Shown: positions 48,788-58,820 of the stretch, one piece after another
How positions within the stretch are numbered: position 1 is the first letter of the stretch
Layout of the letters: every line of letters starts with the position of its first letter
Assembly: GCF_000315365.1 (NCBI RefSeq)
Contig: NZ_CAOS01000003.1
Span: forward strand, 186,001 to 250,000
Length of the DNA stretch: 64,000 bases
Source of the DNA: Desulforamulus hydrothermalis Lam5 = DSM 18033
Lineage (GTDB): Bacteria > Bacillota > Desulfotomaculia > Desulfotomaculales > Desulfotomaculaceae
Direction: 5' to 3'
Notes under the pieces: generated by a model
The model's input: the letters and a program-made list of their open reading frames with translations, nothing else
Database searches by the model: none
Told to the model about the DNA's origin: nothing
Made by a program: the position numbers and the translations under genes

Positions 48788-49360
48788 CTATCCCAGGCTA
48801 TCTTTGGCAACGATGCCGTACAAAAAGGTATGCATAATTGTTTTAAAGGCTTCTTCGGGGGTCAGGTTGTTTTCCAAAATGAAGGTCGGGTTCACCACAG
48901 CCCGAACGGCGGCCAGCAGGGAGGCGGTAACAATGGTGGGGTTCATTTCTTTAAAATAACCCTCTTTGCTGCCTTCCACCATAATTTGAGCCAGATATTT
49001 GATTTTCTCCCCCCTGAACTTTTCCACCCTTTCCCACATCTCCGGGTAATGTCTTTGCAAATCGCCCATAATCCTGGGGTTAAATGAGCGTAATTTTTCC
49101 GATAAAAATTTAACAAATCCGGTAATCTTTTCAATGGGGTTCTCCGAACTGCCCAGAATCTCCAGAACTCCCCTTTCGATCTCCAGCATGGTCATCTGTA
49201 AAACGGCCTCGATGATCTCCTCTTTGCTCTTAAAATACCGGTAGATGGTTCGTTTACTCATATTATTACGGGCGGCCAGTTCGTCTACAGTGGCTCCGTA
49301 AAAGCCCCTTTCTTCGGACAACTTCTTAAAACACAAAACAATTCTCTCCCGGGTAGCCAC
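48788..49360 (-). CDS. TetR family transcriptional regulator
   Basis: 190 residues. N-terminal helix-turn-helix GATVDELAARNNMSKRTIYR with YFKSKEEIIEAVL, then a helical ligand domain. GTG at 49360 follows AGGTGGTGAT. It lies 21 bases downstream of the ABC permease in the same direction, as the last gene of the exporter operon, so it probably represses that operon and responds to an exported compound. It resembles the CecR/YbhGFSR arrangement of E. coli in gene content. Confidence 0.88.
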   Translation of the reverse strand: MATRERIVLCFKKLSEERGFYGATVDELAARNNMSKRTIYRYFKSKEEIIEAVLQMTMLEIERGVLEILGSSENPIEKITGFVKFLSEKLRSFNPRIMGDLQRHYPEMWERVEKFRGEKIKYLAQIMVEGSKEGYFKEMNPTIVTASLLAAVRAVVNPTFILENNLTPEEAFKTIMHTFLYGIVAKDSLG

Positions 49361-49381
49361 TTTATCACCACCTGTATAAGA

Positions 49382-50491
49382 CTAAGCAATCTTTTTCTTA
49401 AACTTGGCAATACTGAGCACCATCAGTACCACCGTAAACACCAGCAAGGCCGTCACCTGCGGCAGGAGATAAGAAAAGCCGATGCCCTTCAATACGATGC
49501 CCCGGATGATAGTGAGATAGAAGGTTAAGGGGATCAAATTGCTCAAGTACTGTACAACCGGCGGCATGGCATCCCTGGGGAACATAAAACCGGACAACAA
49601 AATGCTGGGCAGCAGGATGAAAAAGGACATCTGCATGGCCTGCATCTGCGTTTTGGCCAGGTTGGAAATCAAGACCCCCAGGCCCAGTGAAGCGGTTATA
49701 AAGAATAAGGTCAACAGGTACAGCTGCAGCAGGCTGCCGCGGATAGGTACCCCGAACACGATGGTCCCCACCAGCAGGGCCACCGTAATCTGCACATAAC
49801 CCAGAGCAATGTAGGGGATGATCTTACCGATCATTAGTTCATATGATTTAATGGGAGTTACGATTAACTGTTCCAGTGTTCCCCGCTCCCTCTCCCTGAC
49901 GATCCCCATGGAAGTCATCATCACCATGGTCATGGTGACAATAATCCCCAAAATGGCCGGAACCATGTAATAGGCGGTAATGCCGTCCGGATTATACCAA
50001 GGACGCACCCGTATATCATAAGGCGGGGTGATAGCGCCGGTCTTCTGGACGATAACCTTTTGTGCCTTTAAAAGTCCTATGGCATTGGCGGTGGCGACGG
50101 CGGAATTGGAAACCATGCTGTCGGTGGCATCAACCAGGACTTGCACCGGCGCTGTCTCCCCCTTCCTGACGCTTACGGCAAAATCAGGCGGGAAAATAAT
50201 CCCTACTTTAACGGCACCTTTATCAATCATACGGGTTACATCATCATAACTTCCTGCCACTTCGGTAATATCAAAGTAGCCCGATGCCGTAAAAGACTCC
50301 AGCAGTTCGCGGCTTTCAGCAGACAGGGATTGATCAAACACCACCGTGGGAATATGCTTAACCTCTGTTTGGATGGCAAAACCAAACAGCAGCAGTTGCA
50401 CCAGAGGCAGCATAAAGACCAGTCCGATGGTCAGCCTGTCTCTTTTCATTTGCAGGAACTCTTTATGGAGCACAGATAATATCCTGCTCAC
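49382..50491 (-). CDS. ABC-2 type exporter permease
   Basis: 369 residues. N-terminal helix after RILSVLHKEFLQMKRDR, a large extracytoplasmic domain (about residues 40-170), then five hydrophobic helices. The ABC-2 signature region MTSMGIVRERERGTLEQLIV is present, and GFMFPRDAMPPVVQYLSNLIPL. It resembles YbhR/YbhS. Only one permease gene is present, so a homodimer is likely. GTG at 50491 overlaps the preceding ATPase by 29 bases behind GGAGGG. Confidence 0.9.
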   Translation of the reverse strand: MSRILSVLHKEFLQMKRDRLTIGLVFMLPLVQLLLFGFAIQTEVKHIPTVVFDQSLSAESRELLESFTASGYFDITEVAGSYDDVTRMIDKGAVKVGIIFPPDFAVSVRKGETAPVQVLVDATDSMVSNSAVATANAIGLLKAQKVIVQKTGAITPPYDIRVRPWYNPDGITAYYMVPAILGIIVTMTMVMMTSMGIVRERERGTLEQLIVTPIKSYELMIGKIIPYIALGYVQITVALLVGTIVFGVPIRGSLLQLYLLTLFFITASLGLGVLISNLAKTQMQAMQMSFFILLPSILLSGFMFPRDAMPPVVQYLSNLIPLTFYLTIIRGIVLKGIGFSYLLPQVTALLVFTVVLMVLSIAKFKKKIA

Positions 50492-51407
50492 CGGCCTTCA
50501 CCCTCCTTTTCTTTCTGGAGAGAGCGATGAAAACATCCTCCAGCGACGGGGTAATTTTATTGACCCGGGCCTTTGTATAGGTTTGCAAATCCACCAGGTT
50601 CTGTTCCTTTTCCAGCAAAACGTGCAGCAGGGCACCGTGAACCGAGCATTCCTTCACGTAAGGCAGTTGCTCAATTTCCTGAAGTTTTCCCATGGGGTCT
50701 TCGATCTCCAGCTCTGCCAGCACCCCTTCAATCACCTTGTTTTTCAGATTATCCGGGGTATCATTGGCAATCAAGCTTCCTTCAGAAATAAAGGCAATGC
50801 TGCTGCAGCGCTCGGCCTCATCCATAAAATGGGTGGTTACCATCACAGTGGTCCCTTCATTGGCAAGCCTTTGAATGATATTAAAAAACATTTTGCGGCT
50901 GGTGGGACTGATGCCGCTGGTTGGTTCGTCCAAAAACAGGATCGCAGGTTTGGAAATAATGGCACAGCCCAGGGCCAAGCGCTGCTTCCAGCCTACACTT
51001 AAATTGGCCGCCAATTCTTTTTCCCGTCCTGTGAGGTTGGCCATCTCCACCATTTCCTGAATTCTATGTTGCCGCTCCCGCCAGGGCACACTGTACAGCC
51101 CGGCATAAAAATTAAGGTTTTCATAAACCGTTAAATCGTCATAAAGACTGAATTTTTGTGACATGTAGCCGATATGGGGTTTTATCTTTTCCGCCTCGGT
51201 GGCCAGGTCAAACCCCAGTACTTTGCCTGAACCGGAAGTGGGTTCCAAAATACCGCACAGCATCCTGATAGTGGTAGATTTCCCGGAACCGTTGGGTCCT
51301 AAAAAGCCATAAATTTCTCCCGGACGTATATTGATGGACAATTGATTGACAGCAGTAAAAAAGCCAAATGTTTTGGTCAGTTTACTGGTTGTCACTACAT
51401 AATCCAT
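50463..51407 (-). CDS. ABC exporter ATPase (second of two)
   Basis: 314 residues. Walker A GPNGSGKST, Q-loop MSQKFSLYDDLTVYENL, a modified signature LSVGWKQRLALG in place of LSGGQ, and Walker B AILFLDEPTSGISP. It corresponds to one half of the double ATPase YbhF. Its ATG directly follows the stop of the first ATPase (TAAATG), with the RBS GAGGTGATG inside the preceding gene, so translation is coupled and equal amounts are expected. Confidence 0.9.
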   Translation of the reverse strand: MDYVVTTSKLTKTFGFFTAVNQLSINIRPGEIYGFLGPNGSGKSTTIRMLCGILEPTSGSGKVLGFDLATEAEKIKPHIGYMSQKFSLYDDLTVYENLNFYAGLYSVPWRERQHRIQEMVEMANLTGREKELAANLSVGWKQRLALGCAIISKPAILFLDEPTSGISPTSRKMFFNIIQRLANEGTTVMVTTHFMDEAERCSSIAFISEGSLIANDTPDNLKNKVIEGVLAELEIEDPMGKLQEIEQLPYVKECSVHGALLHVLLEKEQNLVDLQTYTKARVNKITPSLEDVFIALSRKKRRVKAGEQDIICAP

Positions 51408-52310
51408 TTACATCACCTCAAGTTCCGCCAGCGCCACAAAGACATCCTCCATGGAGGGGGGAATTTCTTGCAAAGAAAGCAATTGAATCCCCTGCCGGCT
51501 CAAAGTTGCAAGTATTGCTTCCTCTGCCCTGGTCCTATCCGTTACAACAACGTGATACTTATCCCCATAGAAGTTGGTATCAATAACCTCCTCCAAATGG
51601 TTGAATATTTCCGGCTCCCGGGTGGTTGCCTTGACTTCCAATATTCTATAGGGATAGTTCGCTTTTAATTGTTTGGGAGTCTCAACGGCTGCCAGTTTTC
51701 CGTTGTTCATAAAACCAACTTTTTTACAAAGCTCTGCCTCATCCATGTAAGGAGTTGACACCAGAATGGTCATTCCCTCTCTGTTCAACCGGTAAAGAAT
51801 TTTCCAAAACTCCTTGCGGGACTCCGGGTCTACCCCGAAAGTCGGTTCATCCAGCACCAGCAGTGCGGGTCGGGAAATCAATGCGCAGGTCAGTGCCAGT
51901 TTTTGTTTCATACCCCCGGAGAGGTTGTCGGCATAACTTTGTTTAAAGTTGATCAGGTTGGTAATTTGTAAAATTTGGTCTGCCCTTTGCCGGATGACTT
52001 CCCGGCTTAAGCCGTACATTGAGCCAAAAAAACTGATGTTTTCCATAACGGTCAAGTCTCCGTACAGGCTAAATTTTTGGGGCATATAGCCAAAGAAACC
52101 TTTATCGGAAGCCAGCTGCCGGGGAATCCTCAAATCTATACTGCCGCTGTCGGGGGTAATCAAACCGCAGATCATCCTGATCAATGTTGTTTTACCGGCC
52201 CCGTCGGGACCAACCAGTCCAAAGATATCCCCGGCCTCAACATGCAGGGAGACCCTGTCAACCGCCGTTAACGCCCCAAATCTTTTGCACAAGCTCTCGG
52301 TTTTGATCAT
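51408..52310 (-). CDS. ABC exporter ATPase (first of two)
   Basis: 300 residues. Walker A GPDGAGKTT, MPQKFSLYGDLTVMENISFF, canonical signature LSGGMKQKLALTCALI and Walker B LLVLDEPTFGVDPESR. It is the partner of the next ATPase; together they correspond to the fused E. coli YbhF. ATG at 52310 has AGAGGG upstream, ten bases after the fusion-protein gene; six earlier in-frame codons are not needed. Confidence 0.9.
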   Translation of the reverse strand: MIKTESLCKRFGALTAVDRVSLHVEAGDIFGLVGPDGAGKTTLIRMICGLITPDSGSIDLRIPRQLASDKGFFGYMPQKFSLYGDLTVMENISFFGSMYGLSREVIRQRADQILQITNLINFKQSYADNLSGGMKQKLALTCALISRPALLVLDEPTFGVDPESRKEFWKILYRLNREGMTILVSTPYMDEAELCKKVGFMNNGKLAAVETPKQLKANYPYRILEVKATTREPEIFNHLEEVIDTNFYGDKYHVVVTDRTRAEEAILATLSRQGIQLLSLQEIPPSMEDVFVALAELEVM

Positions 52311-52320
52311 GGTGATCCCT

Positions 52321-53295
52321 CTATTCAAAGACCACGTCAGCCGGCATGCCGGGCTTTAGCGTTCCGTCTTGATTGTTTATCCTGATCTTTACTCCATAGA
52401 CAATGTTGGTGCGTTCCTTTTTGGTTTGGATGGTCTTTGGCGTATATTCACCCTGGGAGGCAATTTCTTCAATGACGCCCTGGTATTCTTGCCCACTGCC
52501 GCTGACGGTAAAGCGCACCTTTTGATTTAATTTAATCTTTGGTAAATCGTCCGTAGGAACGTAAACTTTGATCCACATATCGTTCAAATCCGCCACCGTG
52601 GCAACGGAAGCACCCGCCTGGACAAATTCGCCCGGTTCACGGTTTTTTGATAAAACGGTACCATTAATGGGAGAAATAATTTTGGTGTCTTCCAGGAGCG
52701 CTTCCGATGCTTTTAGGACAGCCCGGGACCGTTCCAGTTCCATTTTAGCTGCCGTAATGGCATCCGGGCGGCTGCCGGATGCCAACAGGCTCAGCTTGGC
52801 CCTGGCAGACTCCAACTGGTTCTGTTTTATTTTGAGATCCAAAGACAGTTTTTCCCATTGATCTTCGGAGATGGCGCCTTCCTTGAATAACTGTTCACCC
52901 CTTTGCAAGTCCGCCCTGGCCTTCTCATAGCCAACTTGGGCGATGTTTACAGCCGCCGCGGCATCTGTTATCTCCTGAGACCTGGCCCCTGAAGTTAAGT
53001 CCCTTAACTGGGCTTCCGCTTTCAGCACCCCCAGGGCATCCCGCTCCTTCTGGGCCACCAGATCATTCCTAACCACTTGACCGACCAATTGACCCTTTTT
53101 AACCGGGTCCCCGGAATTTATGGCAAGAGAGCCAAGGGTTCCAAATACTTTGGCGCTCAGTTCCACCCGGGTGGCCTCAATGGTACCGGTGGCCGTTAAT
53201 ACCTTTTCCTCTTGTGTACCGTAACGGTGATAACCCCAGTAAGAACCTGCGGTCAGCAAAACAGCCAGGACAATCACCAAAGCCTTTTTCTTCAT
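52321..53295 (-). CDS. HlyD-type membrane fusion protein (YbhG-like)
   Basis: 324 residues. N-terminal membrane anchor (ALVIVLAVLLTAGSYWGY), a lipoyl half-motif (VFGTLGSLAINSGDPVKKGQ), a long alpha-hairpin with Ala/Glu/Lys-rich coiled coil (about 75-200), the second lipoyl half (INGTVLSKNREPGEFVQAGA) and a beta-barrel domain. It links the exporter to the outside. It is the first gene of the exporter operon. The region upstream to 53513 contains no clear operator I can name. Confidence 0.9.
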   Translation of the reverse strand: MKKKALVIVLAVLLTAGSYWGYHRYGTQEEKVLTATGTIEATRVELSAKVFGTLGSLAINSGDPVKKGQLVGQVVRNDLVAQKERDALGVLKAEAQLRDLTSGARSQEITDAAAAVNIAQVGYEKARADLQRGEQLFKEGAISEDQWEKLSLDLKIKQNQLESARAKLSLLASGSRPDAITAAKMELERSRAVLKASEALLEDTKIISPINGTVLSKNREPGEFVQAGASVATVADLNDMWIKVYVPTDDLPKIKLNQKVRFTVSGSGQEYQGVIEEIASQGEYTPKTIQTKKERTNIVYGVKIRINNQDGTLKPGMPADVVFE

Positions 53296-53513: not shown

Positions 53514-55238
53514 ATGGGCTTAATATATACCGGTGCCAGGTGCCGCGACTGTTATCGTTGTATTAAAACGTGTCAATTAAAAGCTATCCGGATGAATTCC
53601 AACGGCGCTCAAGGCCGGCTGCACGCACAGGTAATTGATGAACTCTGCGTCCACTGCGGCCAGTGTATTTTAGCCTGTCCCCAGCAAGCCAAAAAGCCGG
53701 TGTCTGATTTAAAACAAGTGCAGCAGTTGATTTCTCAAGGCACCCCGGTGGTGGCCGTTGTGGCAGCCTCTTTTGTCAGTGCACTGCCCTTGCCCAACCC
53801 GGATGTACTGCCTACCCTGCTGCGGGAGCTGGGTTTTGCGGAAGTCCAGGAAACTTCGGTTGGTGCCGGGCTGGTCACCAAAAAATATTTAGAACTTGGT
53901 TTTGCCCAGCCGTTGATTGTCAGTTACTGCCCGGTGGTAGTCAATCTCATTGAACGGCATTATCCCGAACTGATCCCCATGCTGGCACCTGTTGTTTCAC
54001 CCATGGTGGCTCAAGGCCGAATTATTAAATCCCTAAATCCTGATGCCAGTGTGGTCTACATAGGTCCCTGTGCAGCCAAGCGAGACGAAGCTCAGCTGCT
54101 GGGGCTTAATGATACCGTTGATTATTTCCTGGGATTTAATGAGCTCTGGGCGTGGGCGCAAACCGCAGGTATCGCTGTTGAAAAACTATCGCCAGGCAGT
54201 TTTCAAAGTTTTTCTCCCTGTCACAACCGCATCTACCCGGTGGAAGGCGGCATGATCTGGACAGTGGCAGACGAACTTAGGGAAGCCGGCGAAAACTTTA
54301 TCACCATGTCGGGCCTGGACAACTGTATTGAATTTCTTAAGCACTTATCCCGACAAACTATCGTTAATCCTCCTAAATTAATGGAGCTGTGGGCCTGCAA
54401 GGGCGGCTGCATCAACGGCCCTCTCTCTCTCTGCTTGGAAGAAAGCTTGTTCATGCGCCAGCGCAAGCTGCTGGAATATTATAATTCCTCCGGTGAGTGT
54501 GACTTTGCAATTGATAACTATAAATTACCGGAAATCGATCTGGGGCGCAGTTTTAAAAATCGCAAGATCAATTTGCCGCTTCCCTCCGAGGCAGAAATCA
54601 AGGCTATTTTGGCGCGTACCGGCAAACACACGCCGGCCCAGGAATTTAATTGCGGCAATTGCGGTTACGACTCCTGTCGCGCTAAGGCAGTGGCGGTTTA
54701 CCAGGGTAAGGCGGCGGTGGAAATGTGCATACCCTACATGAGAAAACGGGCAGAATCCATGTCTAACCTGATTATTTCTGCCATGCCCAACGCCGTCGTG
54801 GTGGTTGGCAAAAATCTTGACATTTTGGAAATTAACCCGGCCGCTGAGAAATTGTTCCAAACTACCGCCTCCCAGGTGGTTGGCCAGAGAATTTTTGCCC
54901 TGATGCCCGCCACCAACTTTCTAAAAGTAATTGAAAACGGCGAGATGATCAATGCCACCGGCAACTACCCTGAACTGGGCATTATTACCCAGGAGATTAT
55001 CTTTCCGGTTAAAGGCACGGATGCGGTGGTAGGCATATTCGTTGATATCACCTCAGAAAATCGCCGCAAGGAACAGTTTGAACTGATTAAGAGCCAGACC
55101 ATCCGGCAGGCACAGGAAGTTATTGAAAAACAAATGACAGTGGCTCAGGAAATAGCGGGCCTGCTGGGTGAGGCCACCGCTGAAACCAAGGTGCAACTGG
55201 GTAAATTGATAAAGTTAATGCGGCAAGATAACCTGTAG
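53514..55238 (+). CDS. Sensory-type [FeFe]-hydrogenase-like protein with PAS domain
   Basis: 574 residues. Two 4Fe-4S motifs (CRDCYRCIKTC, CVHCGQCILAC) precede an H-cluster domain with IVSYCPVVV (Cys139), IGPCAAKRDE (Cys186, Lys189, Glu192) and ELWACKGGCINGP (Cys295, Cys299). A Cys-rich FeS domain (NCGNCGYDSCRAKAV) and a PAS domain (about 416-520) follow, with a helical tail. All four cluster cysteines are kept, but the proton-relay Cys of TSCCP is Tyr and both cluster Met positions differ. This fits the putatively sensory group C/D hydrogenases. ATG at 53514 lies behind GAGGTG. It is paired with a phosphatase gene. Confidence 0.87.
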   Translation: MGLIYTGARCRDCYRCIKTCQLKAIRMNSNGAQGRLHAQVIDELCVHCGQCILACPQQAKKPVSDLKQVQQLISQGTPVVAVVAASFVSALPLPNPDVLPTLLRELGFAEVQETSVGAGLVTKKYLELGFAQPLIVSYCPVVVNLIERHYPELIPMLAPVVSPMVAQGRIIKSLNPDASVVYIGPCAAKRDEAQLLGLNDTVDYFLGFNELWAWAQTAGIAVEKLSPGSFQSFSPCHNRIYPVEGGMIWTVADELREAGENFITMSGLDNCIEFLKHLSRQTIVNPPKLMELWACKGGCINGPLSLCLEESLFMRQRKLLEYYNSSGECDFAIDNYKLPEIDLGRSFKNRKINLPLPSEAEIKAILARTGKHTPAQEFNCGNCGYDSCRAKAVAVYQGKAAVEMCIPYMRKRAESMSNLIISAMPNAVVVVGKNLDILEINPAAEKLFQTTASQVVGQRIFALMPATNFLKVIENGEMINATGNYPELGIITQEIIFPVKGTDAVVGIFVDITSENRRKEQFELIKSQTIRQAQEVIEKQMTVAQEIAGLLGEATAETKVQLGKLIKLMRQDNL

Positions 55239-55253
55239 AGAGGAGTGCCGCCT

Positions 55254-56405
55254 GTGAAAATTTGCTTAGATATTGGCGTGGCTCAACTTAAAAAATACGG
55301 GGAAGAATTGTGCGGTGACAGTGTAGAAATTGTGCGATCCCAACAGGCTGATCTGGTGGTGGTATCGGATGGTTTGGGCAGCGGTGTCAAAGCCAACATT
55401 CTGTCCCGACTCACCACAAAAACCGCTGCCACCATGCTGCGCCAAGGTGCGGAAATAGGCGAAGTTATCGACACGGTGGCACGCACCCTGCCCATTGATA
55501 AGACCATCAATGCTGCCTACAGCACTTTTTCCATATTGCAAATTGAGAAAAACGGTCAACTTTACCTGGTTGAATACGATAACCCTGCTGTTTTCATCGG
55601 CAACAGGAATAAAATGTTTACACCACGGCGGGAAGAACGCCTGATCGCCGGCAAAAAAATATATGAATATTCCTTTGACGTAGACGATCAGGACTGGCTG
55701 GTTTTAACCTCAGACGGCGTAATCAATGCCGGCCTGAACGGCCGCATGAATGTAAACTGGAACTGGGAAAGAATCGGCAGCTTCATTGAAGATTCTTACG
55801 CAGAGGATAAAAGCGCCCGGGATTGGGCGGCAGAAATCGCCGGGCTGTGCAATACCTTGTATGGCGGGAAACCTGGAGATGATGTCACTGTGGCAGTGGT
55901 CAAAGTGCGCCATCCCTTGTATCTCACGATACTGATCGGCCCGCCCCAAAGAAAAGAAGACGACCGGCCGGTGGTGCGAAAACTTATGGAAGCACCCGGC
56001 GCCAAGGTGGTTTGCGGCGGCACCACCGGTGAAATCGTGAGCCGGATCCTGGGGCGCAAGGTTTTTATCGACTTATCTTCGGTGGTGGAAGGGGTTCCCC
56101 CGGTGGGCATGCTGCCGGGCATCGATCTGGTCACCGAGGGAGCTGTTACGCTGGTGCAGACCCTGGAACATCTCAAGTTAAATACCGATCTCAAACAGTT
56201 AAAAGACGCCCCGGACGGGGCCGGCCGCTTGGCGGCCCTGCTAAAAAAAGCCGACCGCATTCACTTCATGGTTGGCCAGGCGAAAAACGAAGCGCTGGAC
56301 TGCCACGATGTGCCGGCTATTTATGCTTACAAGCATCATGTGATTAAAGACATGATCAAAACGCTGCGGGAACAGGGGAAAAATATTACAGAAGAATATT
56401 TTTAA
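55254..56405 (+). CDS. SpoIIE/PP2C-type serine phosphatase
   Basis: 383 residues. PP2C landmarks: LVVVSDGLGSGVKANILSRL, QDWLVLTSDGVINAG and GGKPGDDVTVAVVKV, giving the metal-binding Asp residues. A C-terminal extension of about 150 residues (from LTILIGPPQRKEDD) is not part of the phosphatase core and I cannot assign it. GTG at 55254 has GAGGAG upstream and follows the hydrogenase-like gene by 15 bases. Together they look like a redox/H2 sensor signalling by dephosphorylation. Confidence 0.87.
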   Translation: MKICLDIGVAQLKKYGEELCGDSVEIVRSQQADLVVVSDGLGSGVKANILSRLTTKTAATMLRQGAEIGEVIDTVARTLPIDKTINAAYSTFSILQIEKNGQLYLVEYDNPAVFIGNRNKMFTPRREERLIAGKKIYEYSFDVDDQDWLVLTSDGVINAGLNGRMNVNWNWERIGSFIEDSYAEDKSARDWAAEIAGLCNTLYGGKPGDDVTVAVVKVRHPLYLTILIGPPQRKEDDRPVVRKLMEAPGAKVVCGGTTGEIVSRILGRKVFIDLSSVVEGVPPVGMLPGIDLVTEGAVTLVQTLEHLKLNTDLKQLKDAPDGAGRLAALLKKADRIHFMVGQAKNEALDCHDVPAIYAYKHHVIKDMIKTLREQGKNITEEYF

Positions 56406-57325: not shown

Positions 57326-57386
57326 AATGGTTCACAATGAATATGTTTGCTTAAATGAATTTCCTTAAAAGTAGGGAGTGAGACCA

Positions 57387-58820
57387 TTGAAAAATTATGA
57401 TGTTGTTGTGGTTGGTGCCGGCCCTGCTGGTATTTTTGCTTGTTACGAACTGGCTTTAAAAGCTCCTCATTTAAAAGTATTATTAATAGATAAAGGACGC
57501 GATATTTATCAACGTCAATGTCCCATTCTGCAAAAAAAACTGACCAAGTGCCCGCCCCCCACAGTCAAAAAAGAGACCGCCGGCTGCATGCCGGCCTGCT
57601 CGGTTACTAACGGGTTTGGCGGTGCAGGTGCCTATTCTGATGGCAAATTTAACATCACCACAGAATTTGGCGGTTGGCTGACAGATTACTTGCCGCCCTC
57701 TGAAGTATTAGAATTAATTAAGTATGTAGATCAAATCAACTTACAACATGGTGCCACTACCGTTATTTCCGACCCCACTACACCGGCGGTCAAGAGTATT
57801 GAAAAACGAGGGCTGGGAGCCGGCTTAAAATTACTGCGGGCCGAGGTAAGGCACCTGGGAACCGAGCAAAATTTAGAGATACTAAAGAGCATCTTCGAGT
57901 TTCTCAAAAAACACATTGATATGATGTTTGAAACCGAAGTGGAAGATATTATTGTGGAAAATAAAGATGATAGTATATATATTAAAGGCATTGTGACCAA
58001 AACAAAAGAGGAATTTTATGCCAATAAGATTGTCATAGTTCCCGGGCGTGACGGCTCTGAGTGGTTAACCAGCCTTTTAAAGAAACATAATTTAGAGACA
58101 ATCAACAATCAGGTGGATATCGGGGTGCGGGTGGAAACACTGGATACCATTATGGAAGAAATTAATGAAAACCTTTATGAAGGAAAATTTATTTACCGTT
58201 CTTCCACCGGCACCACTGTGCGAACCTTTTGCAGCAACCCTTCCGGCCATGTGGTAATTGAAAATCACAGCGGGGTAATGCTGGCCAACGGCCACGCATA
58301 TAAAGATAAAAACCTGGGCAGCAATAATACTAACTTTGCCTTACTGGTTTCACACAAGTTTTCTTATCCCTTTGACAAGCCTATTGAGTATGCCAAAGCT
58401 ATCTCCCGGCTGGCTAATGACCTGTCTAACGGCAGTGTGTTGATCCAGCGATTCGGCGATATTCTAAGAGGCCGCCGCTCTACGGAAAAGAGAATTAAAG
58501 AGGGATTTGTGGAACCTACTTTAAAAGAAGCCGTACCGGGCAACCTTGGGTTGGTTCTGCCCTACAACACCATGAAAAGCATTATTGAGATGATTCAAGC
58601 CCTTGACAGTGTAACACCCGGCATTGCTTCAGAGCATACTTTGCTTTACGGGGTAGAGGCAAAGTTTTACTCTTCCCGCCCCCTGTTAAACGACCGGTTA
58701 GAAACCCAAATAACCGGCTTATACTGCGGCGGCGACGGCGCCGGCATTACCCGCGGCCTGGCCCAGGCCGGGGCCTGCGGTGTTCGCATCGCCAGAGATA
58801 TTATTCAAAAACTGGTTTAA
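57387..58820 (+). CDS. FAD-dependent dehydrogenase (COG2509 type)
   Basis: 477 residues. N-terminal dinucleotide-binding motif VVVVGAGPAGIFACYELAL with LLIDKGRD, the Cys-rich segment CPPPTVKKETAGCMPACSV, GFGGAGAYSDGKFNITTEFG, and a C-terminal FAD closure GLYCGGDGAGITRGLAQAGA. This is the pattern of the uncharacterised FAD-dependent dehydrogenases widespread in anaerobic Bacillota; substrate unknown. TTG at 57387 sits behind GGGAGTGAG; GTG three codons earlier overlaps it. Monocistronic, ended by a hairpin. The sequence around it is visibly more AT-rich than neighbouring genes. Confidence 0.83.
   Translation: MKNYDVVVVGAGPAGIFACYELALKAPHLKVLLIDKGRDIYQRQCPILQKKLTKCPPPTVKKETAGCMPACSVTNGFGGAGAYSDGKFNITTEFGGWLTDYLPPSEVLELIKYVDQINLQHGATTVISDPTTPAVKSIEKRGLGAGLKLLRAEVRHLGTEQNLEILKSIFEFLKKHIDMMFETEVEDIIVENKDDSIYIKGIVTKTKEEFYANKIVIVPGRDGSEWLTSLLKKHNLETINNQVDIGVRVETLDTIMEEINENLYEGKFIYRSSTGTTVRTFCSNPSGHVVIENHSGVMLANGHAYKDKNLGSNNTNFALLVSHKFSYPFDKPIEYAKAISRLANDLSNGSVLIQRFGDILRGRRSTEKRIKEGFVEPTLKEAVPGNLGLVLPYNTMKSIIEMIQALDSVTPGIASEHTLLYGVEAKFYSSRPLLNDRLETQITGLYCGGDGAGITRGLAQAGACGVRIARDIIQKLV

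Follow-up and report, generated by a model that had tools for sequence, protein, structure and literature searches.

Among the [FeFe]-hydrogenases, HydDB recognises a phosphatase-linked group, C3, whose function is putative (PMC5037454). In the hfsABCD system of Thermoanaerobacterium, HfsB holds a PAS domain and HfsC is a serine phosphatase (PMC11837493), and the deletion of hfsB results in higher hydrogenase activity and ethanol yield (PMC5707799). Two other sensory proteins, TmHydS from Thermotoga maritima (group C) and TamHydS from Thermoanaerobacter mathranii (group D), exhibit slow turnover (PMC10055695, PMC8163306), and the members of group D hold no PAS domain and bear Ser or Thr at the place of M353 of CpI (PMC8163306). 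Both the stimulus of HydS proteins and the way in which the signal leaves the H-cluster are still putative in print.

The pair of genes described here, from Desulforamulus hydrothermalis Lam5, is a HydDB group C3 HydS with its phosphatase, of the HfsB-HfsC type, the function of the group being putative. It lies in the window, by which we mean the whole stretch of 64,000 nucleotides that was analysed, and comprises the following features:

53514..55238, + strand: hydS, PAS-bearing, putatively sensory [FeFe]-hydrogenase-like protein of 574 aa (ORF, domains, HydS clade in tree)
53538..53690, + strand: N-terminal 2x[4Fe-4S] ferredoxin-like region, residues 9-59 (PF12838)
53745..54422, + strand: H-domain, residues 78-303 (PF02906, E 5.1e-44)
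53766..53768, + strand: Ala85, at what we take to be the P231 position of CpI (alignment of 86 rows)
53925..53927, + strand: Tyr138, at the CpI C299 position (alignment of 86 rows)
54063..54065, + strand: Gly184, at the CpI M353 position, the family norm (alignment of 86 rows)
54390..54392, + strand: Trp293, at the CpI M497 position (alignment of 86 rows)
54645..54734, + strand: Cx2Cx4Cx16C [4Fe-4S] motif in the interval between H-domain and PAS (PF04060)
54768..55052, + strand: PAS domain, residues 419-513 (PF00989/PF13426)
55254..56405, + strand: SpoIIE/PP2C-type phosphatase; the ORF opens at 55245 and homologues start at 55254 (PF07228, fold search)
55911..56402, + strand: unnamed C-terminal alpha/beta domain of the phosphatase (alignment, profile and fold searches, structure prediction)

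Family placement of the hydS-phosphatase pair

The H-cluster motifs of the protein are V136-S137-Y138-C139-P, G184-P185-C186 and L292-W293-A294-C295-K-G-G-C299 (own numbering), with all four H-cluster cysteines retained. The ORF, start and cluster motifs proposed in a first-pass annotation were reproduced by an ORF and translation check, and its PAS domain was matched by the profiles listed above. In a tree that omits L096 (a row copying part of the window), L019 (broken frame, too short), TmHydS and TamHydS, the HydS-like rows stand apart from the group A and B-like rows of the same genome (support 100/98). They are also separate from a four-row set that includes two paralogues from this genome (99/98), and one of the two, L011, is fused to an MCP signalling domain. 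The window protein groups with HydS and not with group A, inside a monophyletic Desulforamulus HydS clade whose support is 100/100 and whose stem is long (0.47). The features of C3 are found together here: a PAS domain on the H-domain chain, an adjacent serine/threonine phosphatase gene, and a HydS grouping in the tree, off groups A and B. Placement in the catalytic group A was rejected by the tree and by the absence of the TSCCP relay Cys, MPC and VMAC, and membership of group D (M2e) by the presence of the PAS domain and of Gly, not Ser/Thr, at the M353 position. That hydS encodes a sensor and not a catalyst had already been suggested from its sequence; the tree agrees, and C3 and the HydS family as a whole are by now usually read in this way, if still putatively.

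A relative of the phosphatase adjoins hydS in 77 of 87 rows, a count that takes in the window and the partial copy L096, and the pairing is kept across phyla. The genome encodes 11 H-domain proteins, the contig of hydS itself carrying two clusters that are clearly group A-like, and a search for the maturases found HydF, HydE and HydG over their cut-offs, encoded in one run. A second HydS-like protein (L101, 11434-13368 on G000:C1), located ~7 kb from hydF-hydE-hydG, is fused to a methyl-accepting chemotaxis domain and matches the chemotactic C2 type of HydDB. A third (L100, 5413-7143 on G000:C14), with neither PAS nor MCP detected, holds a C-terminal stretch of unknown type.

Family norms and genus-specific changes in the H-cluster pocket

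The pocket was compared in an alignment of 86 rows (10 from the Desulforamulus clade and 76 others, the partial copy L096 being left out), from which only exact duplicates had been removed, so that near-copies remain. The four H-cluster cysteines are kept in 86/86 rows. The first-pass annotation had presented three substitutions as special, and these fared differently. The change from MPC to GPC was rejected as a special feature, Gly being present at the M353 position in 80 of the 86 rows and in about 51 percent of sensory sequences (PMC10055695). The same applies to the missing Cys, since A, C, S, Y, P, F, N and D all occur at the C299 position within the family, and sensory sequences hold Cys at this place in only 17 percent of cases and Ala in about 43 percent (PMC10055695). 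As both are family norms, only Tyr and Trp are unusual among the three changes.

The Tyr138 and Trp293 pair is present in 10/10 rows of the Desulforamulus clade and in 0/76 of the others. Each of the 10 Trp rows carries Tyr too, and Tyr without Trp appears outside the clade in one distant row (L060). Since Tyr138 is found in every clade row and in all 9 Desulforamulus genomes, and the dN/dS of HydS against its nearest relative is ~0.08 (~0.06 for the phosphatase), this residue is not a sequencing accident. Ala85 is present in 9/9 readable clade rows, while 74 of the 76 non-Desulforamulus rows hold Pro. Changes fixed in the clade show a modest enrichment near the cluster motifs, with 7/15 against 40/278 conserved positions within +/-3 residues (Fisher p 0.002, and 0.005 to 0.12 under other settings), the +/-3 and +/-6 windows having been picked post hoc, after the changes were seen. 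In the literature searched, much of it available in part, nothing was found on a Tyr at the C299 place, although one may stand in Fig. S1 of PMC10055695.

Other hydS genes exhibit particularities of their own. Three Clostridium genomes (L034, L050, L051) hold tandem hydS genes, with Phe at the C299 position in the second copy, and the hydS of an apparent Desulforamulus aquiferis (L019, L110) is interrupted, in the assembly used, by in-frame stops that could be sequencing errors.

These changes could be drift at a position unimportant to a sensor, in which case the relocation and the stand-alone tail described below would be unrelated accidents. The variability of the C299-equivalent across the family fits such an explanation, as does the argument that this position may not be important (PMC10055695). 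However, Tyr and Trp are fixed genus-wide despite an overall identity of ~75 percent, the dN/dS is low, and Trp always comes with Tyr, which makes drift unlikely.

It is also conceivable, but we think it quite unlikely, that the diiron subsite has been lost, with Tyr138 and Trp293 filling its cavity and leaving a redox sensor based on [4Fe-4S] clusters only, with no H2 chemistry. In all 10 clade rows, bulky aromatic side chains occupy the two places that flank the azadithiolate bridgehead, and the replacement of Pro by Ala at residue 85 and further near-pocket changes are found in the same clade. On the other hand, the equivalents of CpI S232, K358 and E361, the residues that secure the diiron site, are retained in every readable clade row, and HydEFG is present, though the other hydrogenases of the genome need it too. 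Published data point in both directions: CpI M497L is without a properly integrated [2Fe] cluster, whereas TmHydS, with Ala and Ser at these places, still accepts the diiron site (PMC10055695).

The phosphatase and its C-terminal domain

The likely start of the phosphatase is the GTG at 55254, where its homologues begin, and therefore 15 bases separate it from hydS, in line with the gap first annotated; the PP2C assignment made at that time holds as well (PF07228), and the fold search returned a SpoIIE/PP2C fold. The metal-binding Asp residues of PP2C are invariant in 48/48 sequences, and thus the phosphatase is predicted to be active. No partner pair of the RsbV/RsbW type was found for it (PF13581). 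The only dedicated small RsbW-type kinase (HATPase_c_2) is flanked by a STAS-like protein and a sigma factor, in what we take to be the spoIIA operon.

The extra C-terminal domain, which the first reading of the sequence could not name, spans residues about 225-386 (about 160 residues). It matched no Pfam profile even at E<=10, no NCBIfam profile and, in a PDB sequence search, nothing below E 0.2; the listed matches of a fold search with the whole phosphatase were PP2C, none of them informative on the tail, and a literature search, with sources seen in part, found nothing on the domain. Structure prediction of the tail alone gave a separate domain of alternating alpha/beta elements with a mean pLDDT of 89.3. 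Six positions are invariant (G10, C35, G36, G77, G122 and N126, tail numbering) and, in the model, they lie at or just past the ends of strands 4-9, 31-35, 71-75 and 116-121, a placement that presumably resembles that of Rossmann-like binding domains. The conserved residues likely mark a binding site. Among fold matches, the six highest-ranking VIA rows are Rossmann-like domains of molybdopterin-oxidoreductase type (NuoG/FDH/Fwd), from formylmethanofuran dehydrogenase-type complexes and NuoG of complex I, superposed over 117-124 residues with Z 8.4-9.2 and rmsd 3.1-4.3; the best Foldseek match is methylglyoxal synthase (E 2.4e-3). Since values in this range can reflect a shared arrangement only, we name no family or ligand for the tail. 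In a sample of 299 genomes from the phylum, 93 encode the domain, nearly always in phosphatase-length frames.

Relocation from hydA and proposed mechanism

Of 20 rows from relatives within the order, 17 (all but L114, L120 and L020) have hydA as the gene immediately upstream of hydS, whereas this is the case in 0/9 testable Desulforamulus rows (eight rows and the window; L015, with no upstream DNA, falls outside the testable set). The gene upstream of hydS in the window encodes a divergent HlyD-like protein, and the hydA cluster of this genome is ~64 kb away from hydS on the same contig. Directly behind that hydA lies a gene for a 158-residue protein, which consists of the phosphatase tail alone and is 34 percent identical to the tail of the window phosphatase. 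Of the 9 Desulforamulus genomes, 8 encode such a stand-alone tail (G006 being without it), directly behind hydA in 8/8 of them, with the hydA frame broken in L139. The stand-alone tails group in one clade, with 100/100 support and a long stem (1.7); its position beside the order's fused tails has 90/90, which falls short of the starred level. From this neighbourhood in the tree, the stand-alone tail was likely left behind by, or duplicated from, the phosphatase. G355 may be another stand-alone case.

The surroundings of hydS were also inspected. In its upstream DNA, 6 promoter-like matches (3.8 expected), 5 terminator-like matches (4.9 expected) and one short inverted repeat amount to no finding. 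Positions 48788-53295 of the window hold genes for a TetR-like regulator, an ABC exporter and HlyD-like proteins, divergent from hydS, and the same set is upstream of hydS in L014. A FAD-dependent oxidoreductase-like protein is encoded at 57378-58820; it is near hydS in L012 and L014 too, in a changed orientation.

From the observed sequence, domains, phylogeny, synteny, maturases and conservation, we consider it probable that the window protein is a group C3 HydS with a retuned, slow H-cluster that senses H2 or redox state and relays the signal through its PAS domain to the phosphatase. HydEFG would assemble the H-cluster on the four retained cysteines, in a pocket that appears to have been remodelled around the diiron bridgehead in this genus by Tyr138, Trp293 and Ala85. 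With its pocket rebuilt in this way, the cluster is expected to turn over very slowly and to serve for detecting H2 or the redox state. The signal, in the form of electrons or of a change in conformation, would then reach the PAS domain by way of the second [4Fe-4S] cluster, and this domain would switch the PP2C phosphatase, while the tail, as a separate ligand-binding-like domain, would probably provide a second input. In Desulforamulus, the hydS-phosphatase pair appears to have left the hydABC operon, and a diverged stand-alone copy of the tail is found directly behind hydA, so that the tail may couple the operon of the bifurcating hydrogenase with this pair.

A further version, which we hold to be very doubtful, is that the HydS module has been split: the pair was relocated, its pocket perhaps no longer accommodating the diiron site, and the released tail domain, co-produced with the bifurcating hydrogenase, competes for the ligand of the tail or binds the phosphatase, in which case hydrogenase expression itself would feed back on the signal. 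Finally, a catalytic hydrogenase with incidental PAS and phosphatase neighbours is highly improbable, for although all cluster ligands are retained and slow turnover is on record for both TmHydS and TamHydS (PMC10055695, PMC8163306), the HydS position in the tree, the phosphatase pairing across phyla, the absent proton-relay Cys and the two clusters of group A type on the contig of hydS speak against it.

The order offers a natural experiment, with operon-linked HydS proteins bearing Ala or Ser together with Leu in the sister genera versus unlinked ones bearing Tyr and Trp in Desulforamulus. Moreover, the tail is widespread and its conserved positions point to where binding probably takes place, so that the second input still missing for these phosphatases can be looked for directly.

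The locus is thus of a known kind, a HydS sensor and its phosphatase, and its lineage-specific part consists of the Tyr/Trp/Ala pocket and the relocation off hydA. It shares with HydDB group C3 the domain order of HydS, the PAS domain and the adjacent serine/threonine phosphatase, but differs by that pocket and in not being beside hydA, unlike most relatives of the order. HfsB-HfsC, likened here by description, is similar in combining a PAS-bearing hydrogenase sensor with a serine phosphatase, whereas the window pair has no neighbouring hfsA or hfsD. TmHydS likewise bears a PAS domain and Gly at M353 and is without the C299 Cys, although Ala131 and Ser267 occupy the places of Tyr138 and Trp293. 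TamHydS, for its part, resembles the window protein in its second, C-terminal Cx2Cx4Cx16C motif and in the absence of the C299 Cys, but it belongs to group D, without a PAS domain and with Ser/Thr at M353, where the window HydS holds both a PAS domain and Gly.
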